From positions 1 through 20,667 of IMG/VR virus record IMGVR_UViG_3300025769_001079: a DNA stretch of 20,667 nt; one strand, given 5' to 3'. Source of the stretch: a virus. This document shows, piece by piece, positions 1,757 to 20,543 of this stretch (position 1 is its first letter; every line of letters begins with the position of its first letter). Below the pieces are notes generated by a model. That model made no database searches. It was not told where the DNA came from and saw only the letters and a list, made by a program, of their open reading frames with translations. The position numbers were made by a program, and so were the translations under genes.

Positions 1757-2333
1757 TGTTCTAACCTTCGACGTGGAAACAACCCACATACACAAGGATA
1801 GCGGTGGCACGACTGCCCTGCCTTACTTTGGAAACCGACTCGTTTCTATTGGCTACAAGTGGTTGGGTAAGACTGTCCACTATCACTGCTACTCCCACGC
1901 TGACAAGCCAGCCTACGACTTTGCTGCCGAAACATTCCAGCGGGAACTTGACACGGCTGACGTTGTTGTGGGACAAAACATAAAGTTTGATCTGTCGTGG
2001 ATCAGAGAATGCGGATTCAAGTATGAAGGACACGTCTATGATACGATGGTTGCAGAATATATTTTATCGAAAGCCCAGCGTTGGCCTCTTGGACTTGCTG
2101 CTCTTGCAGAAAAGTATGACGTTACCCGCAAGGAGAAAGACCTCGTTGCGCCGTATCTTAAAGACGGCAAGACCTTTTACGACATACCGTGGGAGATAGT
2201 AGAAGAGTACGGAAAAGCTGACGTACTTGCTACTGAAGAGATTGCACTTAAACAGCTTGATGCCTTTGGCACTACCTTTGAGGAACTATTCAATGACCAA
2301 CAACTTGATACCGACATTAAAGCTTTCGCTTGA
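1749..2333 (+). CDS. DEDDy 3'-5' exonuclease, proofreading half of a family A DNA polymerase
   Basis: All three exonuclease motifs are visible: Exo I with Asp8 and Glu10 (FDVETT), Exo II with Asp81 (GQNIKFDLSWI), and Exo III with Tyr154 and Asp158 (YGKAD). The Tyr-x3-Asp form marks the DEDDy class of PolA proofreading domains. The enzyme removes mispaired 3' ends using two metal ions. At 194 residues it is just the exonuclease domain; the polymerase domain follows in another frame, overlapping by 41 bases. The last dozen residues before the stop look out of frame, because the expected continuation (LIPTLKLSLEMTDTLA) is encoded one base further on. The start ATG at 1749 overlaps the previous gene by 8 bases. 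Probably works with the polymerase as a two-chain enzyme, unless a frameshift joins them. Confidence 0.92.
   Translation: MTNVLTFDVETTHIHKDSGGTTALPYFGNRLVSIGYKWLGKTVHYHCYSHADKPAYDFAAETFQRELDTADVVVGQNIKFDLSWIRECGFKYEGHVYDTMVAEYILSKAQRWPLGLAALAEKYDVTRKEKDLVAPYLKDGKTFYDIPWEIVEEYGKADVLATEEIALKQLDAFGTTFEELFNDQQLDTDIKAFA
2280..2295 (+). promoter_or_regulatory. Ribosome binding site deciding the polymerase start
   Basis: GAGGA at 2280-2284 sits 8 bases before an ATG at 2293-2295, inside the end of the exonuclease gene. It supports independent initiation of the polymerase chain at 2293, rather than at the in-frame TTG at 2227, where the encoded leader residues look like out-of-frame sequence. Confidence 0.6.
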
Positions 2334-3834
2334 GATGACAGATACCCTCGCTCGTATCGAGCAACAGGGACTCAAGATAAACCTACAGACCCTCGATGAG
2401 ATCGAGAAAGAATACCAAGAAGAGATGGACATCCTTGAGGTACGCCTCAACAAACTGGCGCGGGAAGCTATGGGGGATACTCCTGTCAACCTGTCCAGTC
2501 CTGATGATCGAAGCGTCTTACTGTATTCCCGCAAAGTGAAGGACAAACCTGAGTGGTCGCGTATGTTTAATCTGGGTCACGAGATGCGTGGCTCCACAAT
2601 GAAACCCAAACTGCGTACCCGCATGAAGCGCAGTGAGTTCAACTCAACTGTCCGCCGCATGACAGAGGTAGTTCAAAAGACACGCGGACATCAATGCACA
2701 GATTGTCGTGGGGAAGGTCGCGTCAGCCCTCGCAAGAAAGATGGCACACTAGGAAAAGCAATCCGTATCTGCAAGCCGTGTAGTGGCACAGGAGTTATCT
2801 ACGTTCCTACCGGCGAGGTTGCTGGCTTCAAGTTGGTTCCGCGTGATCCGATGGATACGGCATCCGCCGGATTCAAAACCGACAAGGTTACTTTAGAAAA
2901 CCGACAAACCGACTTGTCTGGTGATGCCCACGAATTTGTTACAGCCTATGTACGTTACAATGCGTTGCGTACCTATCTGTCCACCTTTGTAGAAGGGATG
3001 AAAAACAATGTTGACGAGAATGGCTTTATACACCCAGAGTTTATGCAGTGTGTTACGGCGACGGGTCGTCTTTCGAGCCGCAATCCTAACTTTCAGAATA
3101 TGCCACGTGGAAATACCTTCGCTATACGGAAGGTGGTCGAGAGCCGCTTCGAGGGTGGCTCGATACTTGAAGGGGATTATTCCCAGCTAGAATTTCGGGT
3201 AGCAGGTTTCCTTGCTAAAGACAGCCAAGCCTACATCGATGTAAATGAGGGTACAGATGTTCACAGCTATACTGCCAGTATTATCGGATGCAGCCGACAG
3301 GAAGCGAAGGCTCACACCTTCAAACCCTTGTACGGTGGTGTCACCGGAACCGACGCTCAACAACGCTACTACAGAGCCTTTAAAGAAAAGTATGAGGGTG
3401 TCACTACTTGGCACGAGCAACTCCAGCGAGAGGCCGTCCAGAAGCGATTAATCACCCTTCCAAGCGGCAGGCAGTATGCCTTTCCTCACGCACGTTGGAC
3501 TCAGTGGGGTACGGCTACAAATCGGACTGCAATCTGTAACTATCCAGTGCAGGGATTTGCTACCGCTGACCTATTGCCTATCGCTCTTGTCAAGCTGCAA
3601 AATTTGTTCCTTGACAGAAAACTTATTTCTGTGATATGCAACACGGTACACGATTCAATCGTAGTCGATGTACACCCAAACGAAAAAGATATTTGTATCA
3701 AGCTGATGACAGAAGCAATGATGTCATTACCTGAAGAGACAATCAGAAGATATAATGTGGCGTACGATATGCCTGTCGGAATAGAATTAAAAATAGGCAA
3801 AAATTGGCTTGACTTGACAGAAGTAGACCTGTAG
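2293..3834 (+). CDS. polA: Family A DNA polymerase, polymerase domain with DnaJ-type zinc finger
   Basis: From the ATG at 2293 the protein is 513 residues and lacks the exonuclease domain, which is the preceding gene. Motif A is LEGDYSQLEFR with Asp295. Motif B, the O-helix, is RQEAKAHTFKPLYG with Lys339, Phe343 and Tyr347. Motif C is VHDS with Asp454. These are the metal and nucleotide binding residues of PolA-type enzymes. Phe343 corresponds to Phe762 of E. coli Pol I. An inserted segment at residues 130-172 has two CxxCxGxG units, with Cys135/138 and Cys160/163, as in the DnaJ central domain, enough to bind one zinc. HMO-2011 phage polymerase was described with the same type of insertion. 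No 5'-3' exonuclease domain is present. The role is replication of the phage genome. Confidence 0.95.
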   Translation: MTNNLIPTLKLSLEMTDTLARIEQQGLKINLQTLDEIEKEYQEEMDILEVRLNKLAREAMGDTPVNLSSPDDRSVLLYSRKVKDKPEWSRMFNLGHEMRGSTMKPKLRTRMKRSEFNSTVRRMTEVVQKTRGHQCTDCRGEGRVSPRKKDGTLGKAIRICKPCSGTGVIYVPTGEVAGFKLVPRDPMDTASAGFKTDKVTLENRQTDLSGDAHEFVTAYVRYNALRTYLSTFVEGMKNNVDENGFIHPEFMQCVTATGRLSSRNPNFQNMPRGNTFAIRKVVESRFEGGSILEGDYSQLEFRVAGFLAKDSQAYIDVNEGTDVHSYTASIIGCSRQEAKAHTFKPLYGGVTGTDAQQRYYRAFKEKYEGVTTWHEQLQREAVQKRLITLPSGRQYAFPHARWTQWGTATNRTAICNYPVQGFATADLLPIALVKLQNLFLDRKLISVICNTVHDSIVVDVHPNEKDICIKLMTEAMMSLPEETIRRYNVAYDMPVGIELKIGKNWLDLTEVDL

Positions 3835-10429: not shown

Positions 10430-10588
10430 TCAAGACTTCTTGTGTTCCTTGATTACCTCGAATCGTGCATTCAAAAACGAACCCCGATGACGCTTGTAGC
10501 CGTCTTTGGGGTTTTTCATTAGGACAAACTCCTTGCCCTTTTTCATCCAGTGGTAGCCCTCTGGTGCACGAATAACCTTCCTAGCCAC
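10430..10588 (-). CDS. Small basic protein at the end of the structural operon, 52 aa
   Basis: Reading the minus strand, a GTG at 10588-10586 follows directly after the stop of the MMYGG-motif gene, with AAAGG nine bases upstream. The peptide contains APEGYHWMKKGKEFVLMK, then KRHRGSFLNARFEVIKEHKK, and is strongly basic. The GYHWMK start and K(P/R)H(K/R)G-S/A-x-x-A-x-F pattern recall a small protein seen in many marine phages, by memory. The function is unknown; position suggests a virion or assembly accessory. It carries a terminator-like hairpin in its coding sequence. Confidence 0.8.
   Translation of the reverse strand: MARKVIRAPEGYHWMKKGKEFVLMKNPKDGYKRHRGSFLNARFEVIKEHKKS
10480..10516 (+). 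terminator. Rho-independent terminator-like hairpin for the plus-strand operon
   Basis: AACCCC (10480-10485) pairs with GGGGTT (10508-10513), and GACG (10489-10492) pairs with CGTC (10501-10504), leaving a 3x3 internal loop and an 8-base end loop. The plus strand runs on to five T (10512-10516), two of which sit in the stem. On the minus strand the same stem is followed by CGTTTTTG, so weak action both ways is possible. It lies 55 bases beyond the last plus-strand stop, at the meeting point of convergent operons, where a terminator is expected. Confidence 0.6.
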
Positions 10589-10997
10589 GAGTCTTTGCCT
10601 TTCCGCCGTACATCATTCCGCTGCGTACAGGATTTCCGTCTCTGTCTCGTACTGGATTTCCGTCTTTATCTCTTACGATACCTGCGGCACCGGCAATTTT
10701 ATCCGCATAAGTTACCTTATCATAAGGCGGAGCAAGTGCTGCAAATTTTCTTTTACCACTCTTGTTTGACTTTGCCATACCCCCCTTTGCCATATTCATT
10801 GACATACCCATAGGTTGCATCTGGGTCGGTTTCTCTTGTTTCTGTGGTTGCATCATAGGCGCAGACTGCATCATCCCACCCATCTGTGCTTTTTTGCGGG
10901 GCTTGGTTGCTGTACCGCCGTACATCATCGGCTTGCGACGAGACATACCACCATACATCATACCCTTGCGTTGTCCGTTGTAATATGTTTTCATCAT
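10581..10997 (-). CDS. Met/Gly-rich basic protein with MMYGG motifs, 138 aa
   Basis: The start overlaps the stop of the 1673-residue gene (ATGATGA), with AGAAGG just upstream; the second ATG three bases on is equally possible. The composition is extreme. MMYGG occurs three times, near residues 13, 24 and 129, with further Met-Gly and Met-Gln runs (QMGGMMQ, AKGGMAK) and many Lys/Arg. A middle part (residues about 84-107) reads as ordinary protein. It is followed by a repeated (R/K)DGNPVRD unit coded by a 24-base tandem repeat. Similar Lys/Met/Gly-rich low-complexity proteins are known to me in marine phages without an assigned job. Its place at the end of the ejection-protein genes suggests a minor virion or DNA-associated component; this is inference. 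Confidence 0.85.
   Translation of the reverse strand: MMKTYYNGQRKGMMYGGMSRRKPMMYGGTATKPRKKAQMGGMMQSAPMMQPQKQEKPTQMQPMGMSMNMAKGGMAKSNKSGKRKFAALAPPYDKVTYADKIAGAAGIVRDKDGNPVRDRDGNPVRSGMMYGGKAKTRG
10626..10673 (-). repeat. Two-copy 24-base tandem repeat in the MMYGG protein gene
   Basis: Units 10626-10649 and 10650-10673 differ at only a few positions and share GGATTTCCGTCT. Each codes eight residues of the form RD(K/R)DGNPV. The frame is kept, so the repeat grew by whole codons. Confidence 0.85.
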
Positions 10998-13900
10998 CCT
11001 TCTGTATCTCCGGGAATTAGTTGTGCCGTAAAGTATTTCTGTATGTCTTCAGGTGTTCCTTCTGGAAGATAGTCAACCATATTCAAACCTAGTCTTGACA
11101 TCTCTGTGTATACGAAGTCAAATGTTGCACTTCCAAATTTTTCAAAGTCCTTCTTAGTCATACTTTGTGGATATTCCATAACCCTAAGAACAAACTCTGC
11201 GTTTTCTCTGCTAGTTGCTGCCATCTTCATCATATCAATTCCAGCAGCGGTGGCAATAGATAAAGCTAGTTCGCCGGACACATACGGAACACTGACTTGA
11301 TTTCGCATCAAACTAAAACCACGAGACATGGCATAGTTAGTAGTGAGAGGGCGGAATAGGTTGCCTATTTCGACGCGGGTAAGATCAGTCTTTGCTTGTG
11401 AAGCCAAAAAGTCAAATACACCTTCGATAGCATCAACCCACTTTTCCGCGTCTTTCATCTGTTTTTCTGTAGGAATATTGTAAGAAAGGGATTCTGTTCC
11501 AACAAGCAACGCTGTTAGATTTTTCTTAAAGATAGCCCCCTGCTCACCCTCAAAAAGTAAAGCTCCTTCTGCTGGTGCATCGAAGGTTTTCAGAACTTTC
11601 TGTCCTTCTGGCAATCCCAGTAGAGTTTTTCCTTCTTGAGTTTTAAGCTTTGCAACGTTCATCATACCGTTGATGACCATGCTACGGAATGCCTGATCAA
11701 TAACTTCTACGGCGTTTACGTCTTGTCCATCAACATTAACGGTAAGGCTGATGACATCTCCTCCACCCTCTTTGAACTTCTTTGCACCTACCAGATTTAT
11801 AAGGGCGTTTCTCTTCATGTCTTGGATTCTGTATAGTCCGCCCTCACCTATATTAAACACATTCATAAGAAAATCTTCAGGCTTGTCTATAGGAATATTA
11901 GAAGCTTTAATCACACTGTCTTGTCCGACTTGCAGTATTCTTTTGTTTCTTACGGCTTCGGTTGCTGCCGCTTCTACCTTGCCAACTACATCGGCGCGTA
12001 GTTCTACAACCTTTTGTGCAAATGCTTTAGAGTTGGATAGTTCGTGGAAAATGCTGTTGTTTGTTTCGAGTATCCCACCTAAATCCACGATATTAATCAT
12101 TTCACTAGAGCCATCTGCGTATCGTACAGGAAATCTTAAAGCTTGCTGTAAGTTTTCTAAGTCATCTACGTTTATAGAAGGAAACGCTGACGGAACATCT
12201 ACTGCGCCAAACGCCCCTACAACTTCTGTTTGCCCAGAGGTTATTGCTTTTAAAGATCTTTGAGCGTCCTTACCCCACGCATCATATATGTAGGCAGAAA
12301 GATATCCAGATATTGCTCGAAGTCTTGCAATGTCTTCAGGGCTATCTGCTCTAAATACAGCGTTTCCTTTTTCATCTCTACTAGCCAGTTCTTGTAGCAT
12401 AGTATTAAATTGCACACCAATTTCATTTATTGTGGTAGCTTTATTATTTCCAGAAATAGCCTTGCTAACTTGTCCAACAAAGTTATTTAACATGGTTACA
12501 GGATTGTCATTACCCTTATAATTTCTAGTAAAGATAGACGTGTTTATTTCCGTACCGTATACCTCGTTGACATCTAAGTCTTCAAAGTTCAAATAGTCAG
12601 AGCCGTTATCAGCAGCCCTTTCCCTTGCACCCACTGTTGTTACACCGTTTTTTGCAAAAGTTTTAGTAATGGGTCCGTTTAGGCGAATTCTATCCCACCA
12701 TTCTGCTTGATATATTCGTGCAGCAGAATCCCACTCATCTCTGTACTCTTGTGGAATTATTTCCTTTGCTTCTGTAACAAACTCAAAGTACCGCGCAGAT
12801 AAGCTATCATTTCTTATCCGTGCGCCGTATTCTGCAAAAGCAGAAACTACGTCCATAACCTCTCCGGGTAGTGCTTTGAATGCACCTAACTCTCCGTTTT
12901 CTGAGTGCCAAATTACTATCTCTAGTGGTGAAACATCTTCACTAATAAACTCATCATTTTTTGTTCCATCGCTAAACACAGGCGTGGAATGGCGAAGTCT
13001 CATCTTTTCAAAGGTGGTGTTTGGTAGCTTGTCTATTTCACGTCTAGCCATTTCATTAAAAGCTTTACGTGCCCTTTTACCTAAGTTGCCAGCAAAAAAT
13101 GCACTGTCTCGACCAAAGAACTCTCCTAGCGCAGAACTCGTGCTAGGTGCATTTTCATCTTTTGCAATACGAAACATGCGGCGAACAAGGTCAGTGACAT
13201 CTACTGACTTTTCTTCAGAGATGGCTTTTTTGTCTAAGTCAATAAAACCACGACGGGCCGTCTTCTTTGCATCTGTAAGAAATCCACCAATTAGGTTTTC
13301 CCATCCTCGTGCGAGGCGAAGTCCTGTACCGTAGTTCAGGTTGAACTTAGTTAAATCTTTCGCCCGTTCTGTGTGCATTTCCATACGCTGAGTGGCAAGC
13401 TTATTTGCTTCTGCTAGTTCGTCCAACTCTGGGTTTAAGCGTCTCTGCACATCGAGGTGGACCTCTTCTAGGCGGGAAATTACACTATGATCTGCGTTGG
13501 TAAACCGACTGCTTAGAAGCAGGTCCCTTGCGTCCATAACCTTTTCGCTTAAATCTCTTCCGTCCGCATTGAGGTGTTCTTGGCTAGTTGCCAAGCCCTG
13601 CTTCAAGACACCAATGTAGTCTGAAATAATCTTACGAGATTTGACGTCTGTTATGTTAGCATTCTTTAGTTGAGATTCTAGCTGGGCTACAAACTCGCTT
13701 CCTTGTTGTAAGGTAAATGCACGAAAGTTTTGTAAGGTCTGTGCTTCGTTTACATTGGTCAAAGACGTAAGTTCTTTAGCACTTATTTTACCAAGTGCAA
13801 GCTGCTCTGACGCTCTCATCCAACTCAAGTTAGTTAGAGAAGCAGTAGAAAGAGAAAATGTTTGACGAGCACGGGCTAAACCTTCAGTATCCTCTGGGTC

Positions 13901-16015
13901 CCACATAGCAAGTATTTTTTCTTGTGCTTCCCGCATGGTTCGAGCGTATCTTGCTACTTGATCCCTGTTTTCAGGCGTTAGCCGCGCTGACAGCTTTCTA
14001 ACATAATTTAAAGCACGGATTTCTTTAGAGCCTACGTTCATTCCATTCTGACGTAGGAGATTAGCGTACGCTGTTACATCAGCATCTGAAAGCAAACCTC
14101 CTATGCTTCTGCCAGTTAATTTTTCATACCCAGCAACATCAATCAGACTTTCAATGCCTATCGCAAGCTGATTAGTCAAGTCTCCTGCAGCACTATTCGC
14201 ATAGTTCAGCATTTTTCCAGTGATGAAAAGACCACCCTTACCTACTGTTAGATATCCTATGCTTCCCATAGCTTCTGCAGTTAGCCTGTCACCATCAAAC
14301 GCATCAGTAAGAAGTTCACCGGCATTGTATTGGGCTACTGACAATAGGGTAGTATCTTTAACCCCCTGCCAAATAACGCTTACAGGCATGTTATTAAGCA
14401 ACTTTGCCCTGATCAACTGATTTGTAAGGGATTCCCTTTTACGAGTTAATTCTAAGTATTCGACGGACGGACGCGATAGATCAAATCCCTTTTTCATTTC
14501 CAAGTCACGAATTTTCATGTCAGTATCGTTGATGCCGTCTTTTAGGCGTTTGAAACCGACCCGCGATTGATTCATGTCTATACCGCGCAATACGTCTTTT
14601 TCATTATACTTTTTCAAAAGATCACGAAAATCATTGTCGTGCTTTAAAATAAAGAATGCCCCAACGTCATCTACGTCTTTTATCTTATCAGCAACTGCCC
14701 CGCCAGCCTTACGTATAGCTTGAACATCTTCAACTAAGTCGTCATATACTTTTAGGCTTTTCTTGGCTTTTGTTCCTAAGTCAGCGGTTACTAAACCGGC
14801 AGCTTCTACAAAAGATAGCATAAATCTTTCACTTTTACTAAACAGGTTTGTTGCCGTATTCATTACCTGATAAACATCTTCGTCAGACAGATAGTTTATG
14901 GGTGCATCTTTCTCTGTTCCGTCGGCTTGCGGTACTTTAACGGATATTAGCCTGTTGTATGTCTCGTCGTTAATCTCGCCAGCCTGTCGTTTTTCCTCTA
15001 GTCTGTCACGAATAAACTCATTCCAAGTTTCGTTTATGTCTTGGATAGCCACACTATCTGAAAGAGTTTTATCCCAAGTTTCTTGTACTTTGTTGCGGTA
15101 TCCTTCTGTAGCTTTCCACGCCTCATTCCACTGAATTGAGTCTGTTATACCTACCATGCTTCCAATGCCTTTAGCCGCATAGTACGCACCTGCGGAAACA
15201 CCCGCTGGAACATAGCTAAGTGCTGCGTCCCCTAAAAATTGTGCGTTAGAACGAATATACCCATCGTTTATTCTTTCGATAACCATGTCCATAAAGTCGT
15301 GGGTACTAACACCATCGACCATAATTTGCTCTAAGATAGTCTGTTCTTTTCTAGAAAGACCTGTTTCGTTACCTGCTCTGTCTGTAGCAAACTTACCGCT
15401 TGTAATCACGCTGATAGCTTTTGAAGAGTCAAACTGTTTGCGCTGTTCGGAATGAAGAAGCGGGTCCGCTTCCTTTTCTACAGTCGGCTCAAAATCACCA
15501 AATTCATCCGTAAACCGACGTGCAACTTTTGGTGATTCGTACTGTTGCTTGTAGTAGCTGTACGAACCTTGTAATAAGTCGTTTGCAGATTTTAGTTCTT
15601 CTTCTTTTTGCTGCTCGTTTAAGCCCATTGACGACAGCATGGACGGATTGTTAACAATAGATAGTGCCCCTTGTAGGCTATCGACATCTACTTCATCTAC
15701 TTGTCCAGCAACAATCATGTCCTTGAAGGCAGTCATATCTAAAGTAACGGGGCGTTCTGCCTGCTGTGTTTCTGCCGCTATGTCAGCACGTTTTTCTAAA
15801 GGCGTACGAATTCCTTTACCAAGAATACCGGTCTCTGCAACAGCCTTACCTACAGGACGCAAGGCTTTATCACGGGCAGTCTCAACATTCCGATAAAAAG
15901 AGTTCGGTTTATCTAAAGTAGAATTTGTTTCTGCAACAGAAGCGGGAATTTCGCCTGCTACAGTCATTGCAGAAATGTCGTCTATGTTCTCTTGTTGTGT
16001 GTTTTGAAGAACCAT
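10994..16015 (-). CDS. Very large internal virion/ejection-type protein, 1673 aa
   Basis: This is the longest gene in the window. It codes a mainly helical, charged protein with no recognised enzyme domain; in particular I see no lytic transglycosylase motif like that at the start of T7 gp16. Two Gly/Ala-rich, mildly hydrophobic stretches stand out, at residues about 260-290 (LGDAALSYVPAGVSAGAYYA) and about 540-625. They could interact with membranes. Long helical stretches with many charged residues lie between about 690 and 900. Size, position after a 712-residue gene and the overall order resemble T7 gp14-15-16, whose products leave the capsid to form a channel across the cell envelope. 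A gp16-like ejection role is therefore likely but inferred from context. AAAGGA upstream of the ATG gives a somewhat long spacer. Confidence 0.9.
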   Translation of the reverse strand: MVLQNTQQENIDDISAMTVAGEIPASVAETNSTLDKPNSFYRNVETARDKALRPVGKAVAETGILGKGIRTPLEKRADIAAETQQAERPVTLDMTAFKDMIVAGQVDEVDVDSLQGALSIVNNPSMLSSMGLNEQQKEEELKSANDLLQGSYSYYKQQYESPKVARRFTDEFGDFEPTVEKEADPLLHSEQRKQFDSSKAISVITSGKFATDRAGNETGLSRKEQTILEQIMVDGVSTHDFMDMVIERINDGYIRSNAQFLGDAALSYVPAGVSAGAYYAAKGIGSMVGITDSIQWNEAWKATEGYRNKVQETWDKTLSDSVAIQDINETWNEFIRDRLEEKRQAGEINDETYNRLISVKVPQADGTEKDAPINYLSDEDVYQVMNTATNLFSKSERFMLSFVEAAGLVTADLGTKAKKSLKVYDDLVEDVQAIRKAGGAVADKIKDVDDVGAFFILKHDNDFRDLLKKYNEKDVLRGIDMNQSRVGFKRLKDGINDTDMKIRDLEMKKGFDLSRPSVEYLELTRKRESLTNQLIRAKLLNNMPVSVIWQGVKDTTLLSVAQYNAGELLTDAFDGDRLTAEAMGSIGYLTVGKGGLFITGKMLNYANSAAGDLTNQLAIGIESLIDVAGYEKLTGRSIGGLLSDADVTAYANLLRQNGMNVGSKEIRALNYVRKLSARLTPENRDQVARYARTMREAQEKILAMWDPEDTEGLARARQTFSLSTASLTNLSWMRASEQLALGKISAKELTSLTNVNEAQTLQNFRAFTLQQGSEFVAQLESQLKNANITDVKSRKIISDYIGVLKQGLATSQEHLNADGRDLSEKVMDARDLLLSSRFTNADHSVISRLEEVHLDVQRRLNPELDELAEANKLATQRMEMHTERAKDLTKFNLNYGTGLRLARGWENLIGGFLTDAKKTARRGFIDLDKKAISEEKSVDVTDLVRRMFRIAKDENAPSTSSALGEFFGRDSAFFAGNLGKRARKAFNEMARREIDKLPNTTFEKMRLRHSTPVFSDGTKNDEFISEDVSPLEIVIWHSENGELGAFKALPGEVMDVVSAFAEYGARIRNDSLSARYFEFVTEAKEIIPQEYRDEWDSAARIYQAEWWDRIRLNGPITKTFAKNGVTTVGARERAADNGSDYLNFEDLDVNEVYGTEINTSIFTRNYKGNDNPVTMLNNFVGQVSKAISGNNKATTINEIGVQFNTMLQELASRDEKGNAVFRADSPEDIARLRAISGYLSAYIYDAWGKDAQRSLKAITSGQTEVVGAFGAVDVPSAFPSINVDDLENLQQALRFPVRYADGSSEMINIVDLGGILETNNSIFHELSNSKAFAQKVVELRADVVGKVEAAATEAVRNKRILQVGQDSVIKASNIPIDKPEDFLMNVFNIGEGGLYRIQDMKRNALINLVGAKKFKEGGGDVISLTVNVDGQDVNAVEVIDQAFRSMVINGMMNVAKLKTQEGKTLLGLPEGQKVLKTFDAPAEGALLFEGEQGAIFKKNLTALLVGTESLSYNIPTEKQMKDAEKWVDAIEGVFDFLASQAKTDLTRVEIGNLFRPLTTNYAMSRGFSLMRNQVSVPYVSGELALSIATAAGIDMMKMAATSRENAEFVLRVMEYPQSMTKKDFEKFGSATFDFVYTEMSRLGLNMVDYLPEGTPEDIQKYFTAQLIPGDTEG

Positions 16016-16030
16016 TACAGTACGTATCCT

Positions 16031-18169
16031 TTAGACTTGCTCTTGAGTTTGTGCCCACATGTTCCACGCATCTGGGGCATTCTTTTTCCATGTTTCTAAT
16101 TCTTCTGGAGTAGCATCCTGTACAGTTTTGTATTTATTTTGCGGATCACGTGTGCGTATTGTATTGGTCATGGAATCCCAATACCAGAGTTTCGTATCTC
16201 TTAAGGTTGGTACGGCTCCTTCTTCCGGCTTCATTCCGCTTGCAGCCGTCATAGGAGTCCGATATCCTGCTTTTTTTGAAAGCTGCATAAAGGTATACGC
16301 ACCCTTAATTTGTTTTTTGGATAGAGGAGTAGCACGACCAGATGAATCCGCAATCTGTATGATATATGAGTATTGATCTTTCTGACGCTGAAACTGGTTT
16401 AATGCTAGAGTTGCTCGTTCAATAGCAATTTCAGGAGTGTCCCAGTTGCTTCCTAATCTAACCAACTGAGCATCAATGTCTTGGTTAGACAAACGACCAG
16501 ACGGATCAGCCGCACGTGCCATCTGGAAAGCAAGAGCAATACGGGATGCTTCTAGTTTTGCAAACTGTATAGCTTGCTGCTCTGCAAAACTTTCATCTCC
16601 ATTAGATTGCTTTAAGTATCTTTTATAACCCTCATTATACTTTGCTTTAATACCTGCATTGAGTTCCGCCAACCTTTCTTTTGTGACGTATTTTACAGGA
16701 TCGCCGTCAGGGTCAGTTGATAAATTAGCAACTTCAGACTGAGATACCACCATAGTTGATGGGCCATATTGAGTGACGAAGCTTGCATCTATAAATTCGC
16801 TGTCTTTACTTCCCCAAAAATCACTGTCGTTTCTACCTAAAAGACTTCTTGCAACAGCCTTACCTGCAGCAATTAAAAGGTAGGCTTTGCCAGCAATAAT
16901 AGGGGGAGATTTACCCTCACCTGCTTTTGCTACCTGATCTTGCAGTAGTTTAACGTAATCCTTTAATTCAACAATAGTATTACCTACTTCAACATCCCGT
17001 TCTTTAATTTTATTGAAGTCTTCTTCTTTTGCATTACGACTTATTAACAATCTGGCACCATACAGTCTATTAGTTGTGCTCACATCCTTCACGTTTATAT
17101 TTCCACTGCTTGGGTCCCAATCTGTCAAGGGAACCATCAAAGCAAGTGCTACCTGCATTGCAATCGGATCGTTGTTTGTAGCATTACGCAACTTACTTAA
17201 AATATCTTCTGCTGTTGCTTGTTCCATCAAATTAAAGTTTGGACTTTCACTATCCAAGTTCAAGTCCCTGCCAAAAGTATTGATGATTGTGGCTGCACCA
17301 TTTAATGCCCTTGTTTTTCTACTCAGGTCAAATCCAGTTATGTTAGCAAGCTGTGAATCGAACACCTCTGCAAATTTGTTTCGCTCTATACCTAGACCAT
17401 CTGCTAATTGTCCGTACGCATTACCGTAAGTTTCATCGTTAAAATTTATAGTTAGGCGTATAGATCCGTTACTATCGACCGTTCTAGATAACTCGTCTGT
17501 AGATACGATTGCAGATGCACCAGATGCGACATTCTCATCAGCACCCTCTGGTTTCATAACCCCCGTTTTTAAAGCTAAAAGCTGATCAAGGTAGGGCTGT
17601 ATATTCTTAAATGTTTTTGCAGGATTCCACGAAACTAAATTAATATCACCACCGTTTCTTTTTAGTTCAGCATCATATTCATTGGTAAGGATATTCATGT
17701 GTGTTTGAATCGTTCCTATGAAAGCACTCAACTGTGGTGCCGTAAGATTCTTTAGTCCAGACTGTTCTTTTGAAGAAAGAGATCGATACATAGAGTTCAG
17801 AGCAAGTGGACTTTCTACTTTACCGCCTTTTCCAAAAACGTTGTAGTCAAACCCGTAAGAACCAATTTGTGCTTCGTAATCAGATGCTCTCTGCAAAGAA
17901 CTTTGCATCTTTGCAAGATCCAAATCTATCCCGTCGGTTGCGCGACCAAACGGGCCAATAGGCTCACGCTCATTAAACTTTTGACGAGCGGATTTAATCA
18001 GAGTAAATATGCCGCTGGTATCTTTTTTAGGATCCCAGCTTGCTTGAATTGCCAATTCTTCAATTCTGTCAACTTTAGCCTGTTCAGCTAAACGTCTTGC
18101 TTCTTCTTTTTCAATGTTCTGTGTGAAGCCCTTGATAAGGCCAGTAGCGAATGCTGCACCAATACCCAT
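16031..18169 (-). CDS. Large internal virion-type protein, 712 aa
   Basis: The start ATG lies one base after the stop of the upstream gene, with AAGAAGAGG ahead of it. The first 20 residues (MGIGAAFATGLIKGFTQNIE) are Gly/Ala rich and could be a membrane-active or packing helix, followed by a charged helix (EKEEARRLAEQAK). The remainder is predominantly helical with Asn/Ser/Asp-rich loops and no recognised catalytic motif. The middle includes alpha-helical segments around FNKIKERDVEVGNTIVELKD. By size (T7 gp15 is 747 residues) and position directly before the 1673-residue gene, it is a candidate gp15-like ejection protein. The sequence alone does not prove homology. Confidence 0.88.
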   Translation of the reverse strand: MGIGAAFATGLIKGFTQNIEKEEARRLAEQAKVDRIEELAIQASWDPKKDTSGIFTLIKSARQKFNEREPIGPFGRATDGIDLDLAKMQSSLQRASDYEAQIGSYGFDYNVFGKGGKVESPLALNSMYRSLSSKEQSGLKNLTAPQLSAFIGTIQTHMNILTNEYDAELKRNGGDINLVSWNPAKTFKNIQPYLDQLLALKTGVMKPEGADENVASGASAIVSTDELSRTVDSNGSIRLTINFNDETYGNAYGQLADGLGIERNKFAEVFDSQLANITGFDLSRKTRALNGAATIINTFGRDLNLDSESPNFNLMEQATAEDILSKLRNATNNDPIAMQVALALMVPLTDWDPSSGNINVKDVSTTNRLYGARLLISRNAKEEDFNKIKERDVEVGNTIVELKDYVKLLQDQVAKAGEGKSPPIIAGKAYLLIAAGKAVARSLLGRNDSDFWGSKDSEFIDASFVTQYGPSTMVVSQSEVANLSTDPDGDPVKYVTKERLAELNAGIKAKYNEGYKRYLKQSNGDESFAEQQAIQFAKLEASRIALAFQMARAADPSGRLSNQDIDAQLVRLGSNWDTPEIAIERATLALNQFQRQKDQYSYIIQIADSSGRATPLSKKQIKGAYTFMQLSKKAGYRTPMTAASGMKPEEGAVPTLRDTKLWYWDSMTNTIRTRDPQNKYKTVQDATPEELETWKKNAPDAWNMWAQTQEQV

Positions 18170-18170
18170 C

Positions 18171-18734
18171 TTATTCAGCCTCTTCTTTCGTCGGTTTCAT
18201 ATTCATAAAGCTTTCCGGCTTTGGTTCTTCTGGTATGTAACCGCGCCGAATTTCCTCGTTAATCTGTTCGCTAACATACGCAAACATGCTAGGATTGTTT
18301 TGCTTCATCATCTGGAAGAATGTATCGTCGTCCATTTCGTCACGCTCTAACTGATCGTCGTTCTCAAAGAAACGATACGGAATACCTTCCTCTTCTGCCA
18401 TCCCAGCGATTACCATTGCAAGAGGACCCTTGATCATCACACCAACGTCAGGATTAAACCGACCCTCTTGGAACCCCTGCATGATGTATCCTTCGACAAG
18501 CACCTCGACAGAGGCACCGACGATTAGCATCTTCATCATTTCGCGTTTGACTTTTTTTACCTTGAGGCTGGCTATAGCTTTGTTCAAGGCTTCTTCTGCA
18601 TCGACGGTTTGAGGGGGCTGACCCCAAGCGTAGTTTTGATTGTCTTGGGTGATGCTATATCCCGGCGGCACTCGTGCGAAGGGATCTTTCGCTTCGATGG
18701 TACCACGCATAGGCTGATCTTGTGCTATTCTCAT
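18171..18734 (-). CDS. Virion-associated-type protein, 187 aa
   Basis: Start and upstream stop share ATGA. The N-terminus (PFARVPPGYSITQDNQNYAWGQPP) followed by TVDAEEALNKAI recalls a family of marine phage proteins with a P-G-x-S-L/I-T ... W-x-x-P-P pattern, as far as I remember, found in structural gene regions. A central stretch, LIVGASVEVLVEGYIMQGF at residues about 70-88, is hydrophobic but probably a buried helix rather than a membrane span. The C-terminal third is acidic and Met rich (DEMDDDTFFQMM) and ends in a charged tail. The role is unknown; the position among ejection-type genes points to a virion component or an assembly factor. Confidence 0.85.
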   Translation of the reverse strand: MRIAQDQPMRGTIEAKDPFARVPPGYSITQDNQNYAWGQPPQTVDAEEALNKAIASLKVKKVKREMMKMLIVGASVEVLVEGYIMQGFQEGRFNPDVGVMIKGPLAMVIAGMAEEEGIPYRFFENDDQLERDEMDDDTFFQMMKQNNPSMFAYVSEQINEEIRRGYIPEEPKPESFMNMKPTKEEAE

Positions 18735-19198
18735 ATGCCTACCTCACCTTTCAATGTCGCTTCTGCAATAACTTTTGTTTTGCGTCCAGACCGAACAGTA
18801 GGGGTTACCTCTTGTCCTGCTGCTGCACGTAGGTTTTGAAGATGTGGGTTTTGGGAATTGTACAAGGCTTCCCAATATCGTGATACCTCTGGGTTTTGAT
18901 ATAGACGCTGTTGCATTTCAGGCATCTGAACCTGACCGACTGCCGTACCGCGAGTCAATTGCTTTATAGTACGTGCTCTTTCTATTTCTGGTGCTTGACT
19001 AAATACTTGAGCGTCCTTGCCTTTTGATTCAACCCAAGCTTGTGCACCCTTCTTGATAAATCCCAGAGCGGTTGAGGAATCATACAAACCAGCATCTTCG
19101 TCAGCAAACATGTCCGCTGGATTGCTGCTTCTTCCACCACCAAACAACGAACTTCCGAAAGTCCAGACGGTGCTAATAATGTTACCTAAATCAAACAT
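18731..19198 (-). CDS. Small virion-type protein, 155 aa
   Basis: I do not recognise the family. The N-terminus (LGNIISTVWTFGSSLFGGGR) is an amphipathic to hydrophobic segment ending in a Gly/Ser linker, a pattern common in phage proteins inserted in or near the portal or ejected. The middle is helical, with basic and Gln residues (ERARTIKQLTRG, EMQQRLYQNPEVSRYWEAL). The C-terminus has a basic RSGRKTK patch. It lies 13 bases after the 443-residue gene and overlaps the next by 4 bases, in one operon with the ejection-type genes. Confidence 0.82.
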   Translation of the reverse strand: MFDLGNIISTVWTFGSSLFGGGRSSNPADMFADEDAGLYDSSTALGFIKKGAQAWVESKGKDAQVFSQAPEIERARTIKQLTRGTAVGQVQMPEMQQRLYQNPEVSRYWEALYNSQNPHLQNLRAAAGQEVTPTVRSGRKTKVIAEATLKGEVGI

Positions 19199-19211
19199 CT
19201 ATTTTCCTAAC

Positions 19212-20543
19212 TTATGCGTTTGCAATCCACTTGGCAATCCAGTTTCCAACTCCGGCAGCTAGGTTGTCTTTTTGTGTTTGATCGTATATCTTCTGACTAT
19301 TTGCAAATTCCATAGCCATGATTCCGATTTCGTGCTGCCGTTGCAGTTGTGATTCTCCCTTTTGAAAGTTCCACGCTGCATTGTCACGATACTGTTGCCA
19401 TAGATTATTCATTGCATTTTGTGTTGCATTAAAAGTGTTCTGAACGTTTTGGCGGTTGGCTTCGTTAGCGGCTGCAGTATTTGCCGTGTTTACTTGTCTG
19501 CGCCACTGAACGTTGGATTGATCTACAGCAAATTGCATGTTTGCATTGAACTTAGAACGGGCATCATTCATTGAGGCATTGAACTGATTCATTGCGTTGG
19601 CTTCACCAGCATTGAACTGGTTCATTGCGGCTACCCGGTTAGCGTTTGCTGTCTCGACCTGACTTCCCAACTCTTGAAAGAACTGCTCAACCTGCAACTC
19701 GTTCTTTGCGTTGAACTGCTGACGGGCGTTTTCTTCAGCGGCATCTTTGAAAATAGCTTGAGTCAGGGCGTTGTACGAAAGGGTATTGGCCTGCTGCTGT
19801 GCGTCGAGGTTCTTTGTTTCGATAGCAAGAAGAGACTGTGCGTTCGTTACTGCAGAAGTCAAACGAGCATTTAAATTTGCCTTGTCCATTGCCGCAAAGG
19901 TTGCAGCGTTGGACAGAGCCATCTGCTGTTCGTTGTTCAGGTTTGCAAGCTGAATCGTTGCATACTTCTTTGCGTCGTCGGCTGCAATCGTGATTCCAGA
20001 TTCCAAGACAGCTTGGGTCATTGCTGCTGCAGCCATCGAACTGCCGCCCAATCCACGTGCTTGCATAATACCGCCGATTTTACGAACGGCAGGAGCAGCC
20101 CACGGGGGCATCGGTTGACCTTGCTGGATGCTTCCCAACAGTTGACTCATTTGATATTGGGTGGTAGCCCGTTGGTCTAGTTGTTGGGTTGCTGCTGTGC
20201 CGATTGCTCCTGCAGACGGACCTGCCTGTACCCCAGTCATGTCAACCTGAACAGGCTGAGTGATTTGAGCGGCTTGCATCGTTCCTACCTGCGGAGTTAC
20301 CTGCGTGGTAGTTGCGACTTGGCCTAAGTTAGGTGTCGTCTGAGTAGGTAGGGGGGCTATTGTTCCGGCAGTTCCCGCCGTTGCAGTAGGAACTGTAGGT
20401 TGTGCAGCAATTTGAGTACCGGTTGTTCCCTGTATTTCGTTGGAAGCAATGGTCTGTGTTACAGGAACTGCAGCAGGAATACCCGCTCCGGCAAGTGCAC
20501 CTACTTCTGTTTGTAATTGCTGATCTGTAGTAATTGTTGCCAT
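19212..20543 (-). CDS. gp14-like internal virion protein with 11-residue repeats, 443 aa
   Basis: Three parts are visible. Residues 1-125 are low complexity, rich in Thr, Gln, Val, Pro and Ala with almost no charge, and probably disordered. Residues about 143-184 hold WAAPAVRKIGGIMQARGLGG followed by SSMAAAAMTQAVLESGI, a pattern I associate with phage internal virion proteins. Residues 185-426 form 22 uninterrupted 11-residue units, with Asn at position 6 in 14 of them and Asp in 3, as expected of a long helical bundle. The last 17 residues (NLAAGVGNWIAKWIANA) form an amphipathic Trp-bearing helix. The order relative to the 712- and 1673-residue genes suggests a T7 gp14-like role in forming a DNA ejection channel. 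There are no cysteines. A purine-rich AAGGGACTAGGG precedes the ATG. Confidence 0.9.
   Translation of the reverse strand: MATITTDQQLQTEVGALAGAGIPAAVPVTQTIASNEIQGTTGTQIAAQPTVPTATAGTAGTIAPLPTQTTPNLGQVATTTQVTPQVGTMQAAQITQPVQVDMTGVQAGPSAGAIGTAATQQLDQRATTQYQMSQLLGSIQQGQPMPPWAAPAVRKIGGIMQARGLGGSSMAAAAMTQAVLESGITIAADDAKKYATIQLANLNNEQQMALSNAATFAAMDKANLNARLTSAVTNAQSLLAIETKNLDAQQQANTLSYNALTQAIFKDAAEENARQQFNAKNELQVEQFFQELGSQVETANANRVAAMNQFNAGEANAMNQFNASMNDARSKFNANMQFAVDQSNVQWRRQVNTANTAAANEANRQNVQNTFNATQNAMNNLWQQYRDNAAWNFQKGESQLQRQHEIGIMAMEFANSQKIYDQTQKDNLAAGVGNWIAKWIANA
19266..19991 (-). repeat. Array of 22 hendecad (11-residue, 33-base) units in the 443-aa protein
   Basis: Residues 185-426 divide without gaps into 22 units of 11. 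Examples are QMALSNAATFA, ARQQFNAKNEL, AMNQFNAGEAN, AMNQFNASMND and ARSKFNANMQF. Position 6 is Asn in 14 units and Asp in 3. Positions 1-2 are mostly small or hydrophobic. Two neighbouring units also share 20 of 21 bases (19576-19596 and 19609-19629), showing recent duplication; others are diverged, so the array is old. Confidence 0.85.

Follow-up and report, generated by a model that had tools for sequence, protein, structure and literature searches.

What is a run of 22 eleven-residue units, joined without a single gap, doing in a viral protein? The window considered here, by which we mean the whole 20,667-nucleotide stretch that was analysed (positions 1 to 20,667 of IMG/VR virus record IMGVR_UViG_3300025769_001079), encodes on its minus strand a 443-residue open reading frame, gA (19212-20543), which opens a block of genes and has relatives in 27 phage records and more than 230 viral contigs. 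An earlier sequence-only reading had picked out the hendecads and suggested that they form a DNA ejection barrel. The array itself is confirmed and indeed strengthened by its relatives: it is phase-locked, and its hendecads are gained and lost only whole. Its likely role takes rather longer to argue.

What does the array look like?

The boundaries proposed in that reading are exact, residues 185-426 of the frame starting at 20543 corresponding to 19266-19991 on the minus strand, and the division into 22 gap-free blocks was reproduced, with Asn at position 6 (Asn6) in 14 of the 22 and Asp in three more, namely the blocks starting at 185, 262 and 416. The array has no Pro, few Gly and an abundance of Gln and Asn, and it falls into parts (all on the minus strand). 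Arm 1 (residues 196-272; 19728-19958) is a 22-residue double hendecad in which NL and NA alternate, arm 2 (residues 273-371; 19431-19727) consists of single hendecads that follow the pattern AMxQFNAxxxN, and residues 372-426 (19266-19430) retain the register with Asn6 mostly gone and with W382 and R402 strongly conserved. The protein begins with a low-complexity head of variable length, rich in Thr, Gln, Pro and Ala (residues 1-125; 20169-20543), and a conserved segment, PxWAAxAVRKxxxxMxARGLGxSSMAAAA, precedes the array (residues 140-184; 19992-20126). It ends in a tail (residues 427-443; 19215-19265) that had been proposed as a membrane-entering helix; this tail is amphipathic and does contain Trp, but in the window it is only weakly hydrophobic (best 19-residue mean hydropathy 0.08), and in some relatives the C-terminus is Gly/Ala-rich and more hydrophobic (up to 1.49). 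Searches of PHROGs, Pfam and PDB sequences with the window's gA gave no convincing match, and weak Pfam rows to GHMP kinase, KMP11 and CCDC90 were judged to be chance.

The period of 11 stands clearly above shuffled sequence, with a positional information z of 7.15, the highest among periods 4-39, and, of the others, just its multiples 22 and 33 are prominent; there is no heptad signal in the window's array (period 7, z = -0.9). The top count for a single residue in one column is 14; shuffled sequences give 7.4 +/- 0.9, and none of 1000 reached 14. A Fourier test on Asn alone tells the same story, with a peak at 2.74 residues, or 11/4 (0/1000 shuffles), and a modest one at 11.04 (p = 0.044), and nine divergent homologues show period 11 with z between 6.1 and 15.2. 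The DNA carries no tandem repeat across the array and thus no sign of recent tandem duplication, from which we take the array to be old.

How has it evolved?

Searching by tblastn with gA recovered 27 phage records, comprising HMO-2011-type marine podophages, their kin and one unclassified record. Among the named relatives are Puniceispirillum HMO-2011, the Pelagibacter HTVC and Roseobacter CRP phages, Vibrio CHOED, Aeromonas MQM1 and 1233, Pseudoalteromonas Slicky01, Sinorhizobium phiM6 and Rhizobium RHph, and scans of viral contigs added more than 230 distinct homologues. The family is limited to HMO-2011-type podoviruses and close kin, and its members are nearly always annotated as 'hypothetical protein'. 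HMO-2011 gp25 and its homologues in CRP, HTVC, CHOED, MQM1, Slicky01 and phiM6 are true homologues of gA (E 1e-9 to 1e-37) that share its gene block; they have 20-28 units, with up to 38 in environmental contigs, and differ in their head and tail extensions. The 142 relatives that were compared reach down to about 30% identity, and the window's gA has the series IAxxDA ... NAxxQFNA ... SNxxWRR ... W382 by which the family is recognised along the array.

It is the spacing of such anchors that makes the strongest case. Between residues 187 and 402, spacing among the 142 homologues equals that of the window modulo 11 in every one of the 138-142 sequences available per interval, and an anchor-motif search placed 232 of 236 sequences in the window's modulo-11 class, the four exceptions probably being wrong motif picks. 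The sequence-only reading had counted on homologues without indels between units; indels do exist, yet all are whole hendecads. The array ranges from 20 to 38 hendecads across the family, with ten length states for the pair of arms and therefore at least nine independent changes, each a multiple of 11, for which our own arithmetic gives a chance of about (1/11)^9 if every remainder is assumed to be equally likely. Changes in arm 1 (-22, +22, +66 and +176 residues) are all even numbers of hendecads, and its residue 7 keeps to the double unit, being Leu or Phe in 337 of 345 even units and Ala or Ser in 341 of 345 odd ones; arm 2 has changed by -11, +11, +22, +33 and +44. The two vary independently, arm 1 having gained 6 or 16 units with arm 2 unchanged, or lost two while arm 2 gained two, and between residues 185 and 421 the closest relatives match the window in length throughout. 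A loose helix would need no strict whole-unit spacing whereas a packed one would, so the spacing supports a packed rod.

Asn6 is kept too, as had been expected: over 17 blocks in 56 sequences of less than 70% identity it is 71% Asn and 13% Asp, and 153 of 212 inserted units carry Asn there. Across the family it is strong in blocks 2-17 and 19, is not a family trait in the blocks starting at 251, 284, 372, 394 and 405, and is weak in that at 416, so that the last 50 or so residues of the array are conserved in length and mostly not in Asn.

Relatives have also acquired domains at their ends. Extensions bearing LysM or RTX replace the low-complexity head in some, with a LysM at the head of CRP-235 gp25 (E 8.7e-11), which fits contact with peptidoglycan or the cell wall, and RTX calcium-binding repeats in the homologue of contig L117. 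N-terminal extensions with LysM, RTX nonapeptide and EF-hand-like segments were seen at L331:1639-4170 (CRP-235 gp25), L117:6804-9836 and L157:485-3691, the EF-hand-like rows falling below the Pfam cut-off. At the other end, Peptidase_S74, a self-cleaving C-terminal chaperone that assists trimers, is found in the homologues of CRP-738 (E 1.7e-10), CRP-235 (3e-9) and contig L151 (0.00028); it is absent from the window's gA in a Pfam search, as from most relatives. Four further homologues (L002, L141, L154 and L159) carry a C-terminal module of about 80 residues, CWVAREVYGxxxxRWxxFRxWLxxxAPKWxxxLYxKHGExxAxxIxxxPxLKW, which has no Pfam or PHROG match in the scanned proteins.

How might the helices pack?

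AlphaFold2, given 94 homologues, predicts helices at residues 169-275 and 283-442 and no strands, with low confidence (mean pLDDT 65, pTM 0.29), the two being separated by a predicted break at residues 276-282 (19698-19718, minus strand; pLDDT below 50 at 278-280). A helical array is what the sequence-only reading had supposed, and mean-field coupling analysis agrees in showing enrichment of couplings from i+2 to i+4 in the family. Foldseek found no match for the model, as expected given its low confidence. A solenoid or beta reading (an Asn ladder with ANL motifs, as in pentapeptide repeats) was rejected in view of the helix-only prediction, the absence of Pro and the scarcity of Gly.

Placed on a helical wheel at 98.2 degrees per residue, both arms are hydrophobic at positions 2 (98 degrees) and 7 (229 degrees), with an additional hydrophobic position that is 4 (295 degrees) in arm 1 and 5 (33 degrees) in arm 2. 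The hydropathy profile is two-faced, with a second harmonic of 0.65 and a first of 0.08, the pattern expected of a helix flanked by others on both sides; a single amphipathic face was rejected on that first harmonic. Asn6, at 131 degrees, adjoins hydrophobic position 2 at the edge of the charged and variable face (positions 10 and 3) and is the most conserved position of all (entropy 0.62, versus 2.18 at position 10), while positions 1 and 8, on the opposite side from Asn6, are Gln-rich and mostly uncharged.

The natural comparison is with phiX174 H, a decameric helical tube in which 18 of 23 inward residues are N, Q or R, and which has only three hendecads (QKELTKMQLDN and two more) before continuing in heptads (PMC7354561). 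Like H, gA is predicted to be an amide-rich hendecad helix; unlike H, it shows no heptad signal alongside its 20-38 hendecads, the viruses are of unrelated kinds, and we claim no homology. Set against the arm 1 profile, the H hendecads align best in the register that pairs position 1 of H with position 1 of gA (p = 0.002 over registers), a match that is based on 33 residues, with three profile sets tried and with the inward-facing residues of the H hendecads inferred from the H heptads. This register puts the H amide (Gln) positions at gA 1 and 8, not 6. The Asn-lined lumen of the sequence-only reading accordingly finds no support, and because Asn6 adjoins position 2, has the lowest entropy and is not where the H amides map, we read it as an interface lock: judging by sequence, it most likely locks register and helix-helix contacts, and a polar lumen would more plausibly be lined by the Gln-rich face (positions 1 and 8).

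What do the neighbouring genes suggest?

In the window and in relatives, gA is the first gene of a conserved block that closes with two large proteins. It is followed, on the same strand, by the fast-evolving gB (155 aa; 18731-19198), the conserved gC (187 aa; 18171-18734), which overlaps gB by four bases, the mostly helical gD (712 aa; 16031-18169), matching T7 gp15 in position and size range, and gE (1673 aa; 10994-16015), the most diverged of the block, which occupies the position of T7 gp16 and is larger than the listed gp16-like proteins. The five are tightly spaced or overlapping, after which the block meets convergent replication genes, and by gene order a like block is present in HMO-2011, HTVC033P, Slicky01, phiM6, MQM1 and CHOED. 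What leads to gA can be seen in contig L008, where gA is identical: an adaptor (Pfam SU10_adaptor, E 4e-21), a 722-residue tail protein, an 829-residue fibre ending in S74 and a 114-residue protein. The ejection-protein setting suggested earlier is therefore plausible, gA being preceded by an SU10-type adaptor and tail genes, and followed by two large proteins, in short-tailed phages; the tail of the relative MQM1 measures 9 nm (PMC10410586).

In T7 this position is occupied by gp13-gp16. Podoviral ejection genes are grouped in an operon, a small gene and two large ones (gp14, gp15 and gp16 in T7), and gp14 is better conserved than the other two (PMC8954989). Median identities among relatives here are 67% for gA, 31% for gB, 59% for gC, 22% for gD and 19% for gE, and such conservation of the small gA while gD and gE diverge most counts for an ejection module, matching what is reported for T7. 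Like gp14, gA follows adaptor and tail genes, precedes two large proteins, is the best conserved of its set, is helical (by prediction) and may have a Gly/Ala-rich C-terminus. Unlike gp14, which itself has no 11-residue period, it is separated from the large genes by an extra small pair, gB and gC, and at 443 residues it is twice as long, the gp14 family measuring about 180-240 aa (PMC8954989). Nor is there any profile similarity: hhalign comparison of gA, gB, gC, gD and gE with T7 gp14 revealed no homology (for gA, probability 0.2% and E 0.35), even for gC, which is nearer to gp14 in size and adjacency, and P-SSP7 gp14 as a second probe had matches in cyanophages only. For gD, modelled with a pLDDT of 76 and a pTM of 0.58, Foldseek returned nothing below E 0.5 and no known fold, and a PDB match of its N-terminus (chain 23sg_m, gp20, E 0.0066) was judged compositional. 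The block is thus plausibly ejection-like by position, and not by proven homology.

Several other features of the neighbourhood deserve a mention. Comparing L009:1221-10404 with window positions 10994-20543, gA, gB and gC are 86-99% identical, gD is 37% and gE 22% identical, apparently the result of a swap of the two large genes downstream of an almost unchanged gA. A small Met/Gly/Lys-rich protein with repeated MMYGG motifs (10581-10997, minus strand), conserved in a few contigs, sits where the block ends, and its gene contains a 24-base tandem repeat (10624-10676). Upstream of the adaptor gene in L008 (155-1591) is a 478-residue protein, most of which consists of short TTLTGVSATGTVNTVNTTAD-type repeats. 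Finally, DNA polymerase I is apparently split in the window, into exonuclease and polymerase reading frames (1749-2333 and 2227-3834, plus strand; named by eye) that overlap in different frames, and adjacent polymerase frames are reported for MQM1 too (PMC10410586).

So what is gA?

We infer that gA is a virion protein of the ejection (internal-core) module of HMO-2011-type podoviruses, its hendecads making a rod that is most simply a parallel homo-oligomeric tube or bundle, and we would hold this at a little short of an even chance. The 20-38 hendecads would give an elongated alpha-helical rod with neighbours packed along two of its sides; in the window protein it would measure about 36 nm at full extension. 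The tube or bundle would lengthen the short tail across the cell envelope during genome delivery. With an identical side-chain pattern in every unit, such a rod could gain and lose units only whole. Counting against it is the roughly two-fold variation in array length, which does not track one fixed envelope width, and virion proteomics of any gA relative was not found in the literature searched. A bolder version, speculative and on balance unlikely, would make gA a delivery tube unlike known ejection proteins in sequence, its length in whole hendecads (20-38) serving as a ruler for different envelopes, with Asn rungs zipping the helices and Gln lining the channel.

The S74 domains of three relatives point elsewhere, to a trimer with no DNA channel, and are the main evidence that gA is instead the three-stranded, right-handed coiled coil of a tail needle, fibre or spike, in which Asn6 would form polar core layers that set trimer and register. 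The preceding tail-fibre gene is likewise S74-ended, and positions 5, 9, 2 and 6 are successive +4 steps that would put Asn at the edge of the core. Such a shaft is a serious contender, though an unlikely one: a simple three-stranded core would leave the second hydrophobic stripe, at position 7, unaccounted for, the block comes after the tail genes and beside two large proteins, as in T7, and although a few gA relatives end like the S74-bearing trimeric fibres and spikes of the endosialidase chaperone family, the window's gA and most others do not, and their predicted helical hendecad body differs from the beta-structure usual in such fibres. Rather less likely, we think, is a hairpin like that of ejected T7 gp14, which has two antiparallel helices, with six copies resolved, in an outer-membrane channel (PMC11784390). 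The break predicted at 276-282 would make antiparallel partners of residues 169-275 and 283-442, several such hairpins forming the channel, and conserved residues around 272-292 and a mirror-like hydropathy of the arms (by eye from the hydropathy table, arm1(x) resembles arm2(9-x)) are in keeping with this. However, no relative shows a break in hendecad phase at the putative turn, arm lengths are unmatched across the family, mean-field analysis shows no antidiagonal coupling line (best z 2.5, from an effective 67 sequences only) and the pTM is low, so that on sequence grounds a continuous rod seems favoured.

The barrel as first proposed, with 6-10 copies and the Asn6 ladder facing inward to touch DNA, draws on the decameric tube of phiX174 H and on the retention of Asn6 in relatives and inserted units, and it appears improbable now that Asn6 is found beside a hydrophobic seam, far less variable than exposed-looking positions, which suggests a packing role, and now that the H glutamines map elsewhere. 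A core or scaffold rod, never ejected, that orders the DNA or the core stack within the capsid would be expected at the identical gene position, but the LysM and RTX modules of the N-terminal extensions fit an exposed or periplasmic life better, and we consider it very improbable. To an 11/3 amphipathic helix lying on a membrane, like the 11-mers of alpha-synuclein or the apolipoproteins, we give next to no credence: it would account for a period of 11 without heptads, but not for the lack of a single hydrophobic face, the highly conserved Asn next to a hydrophobic position or the Gln/Asn-rich composition.

Why does it matter?

HMO-2011-type phages are described as a dominant and broadly distributed group of marine viruses (PMC9038755), and the papers searched contain no description of how their DNA passes the host envelope. 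The block described here offers five candidate genes for that delivery, with gA the clear leader. If gA is a tube, the principle embodied in phiX174 H, of hendecad helices lined with amides, would be linked to the tailed phages, and if its length does act as a ruler, gA would be the long-rod counterpart of the H tube in dsDNA phages. The array also suggests a structural rule: residues could be taken out or put in by elevens with the fold intact, and the reach of the rod may depend on its length.
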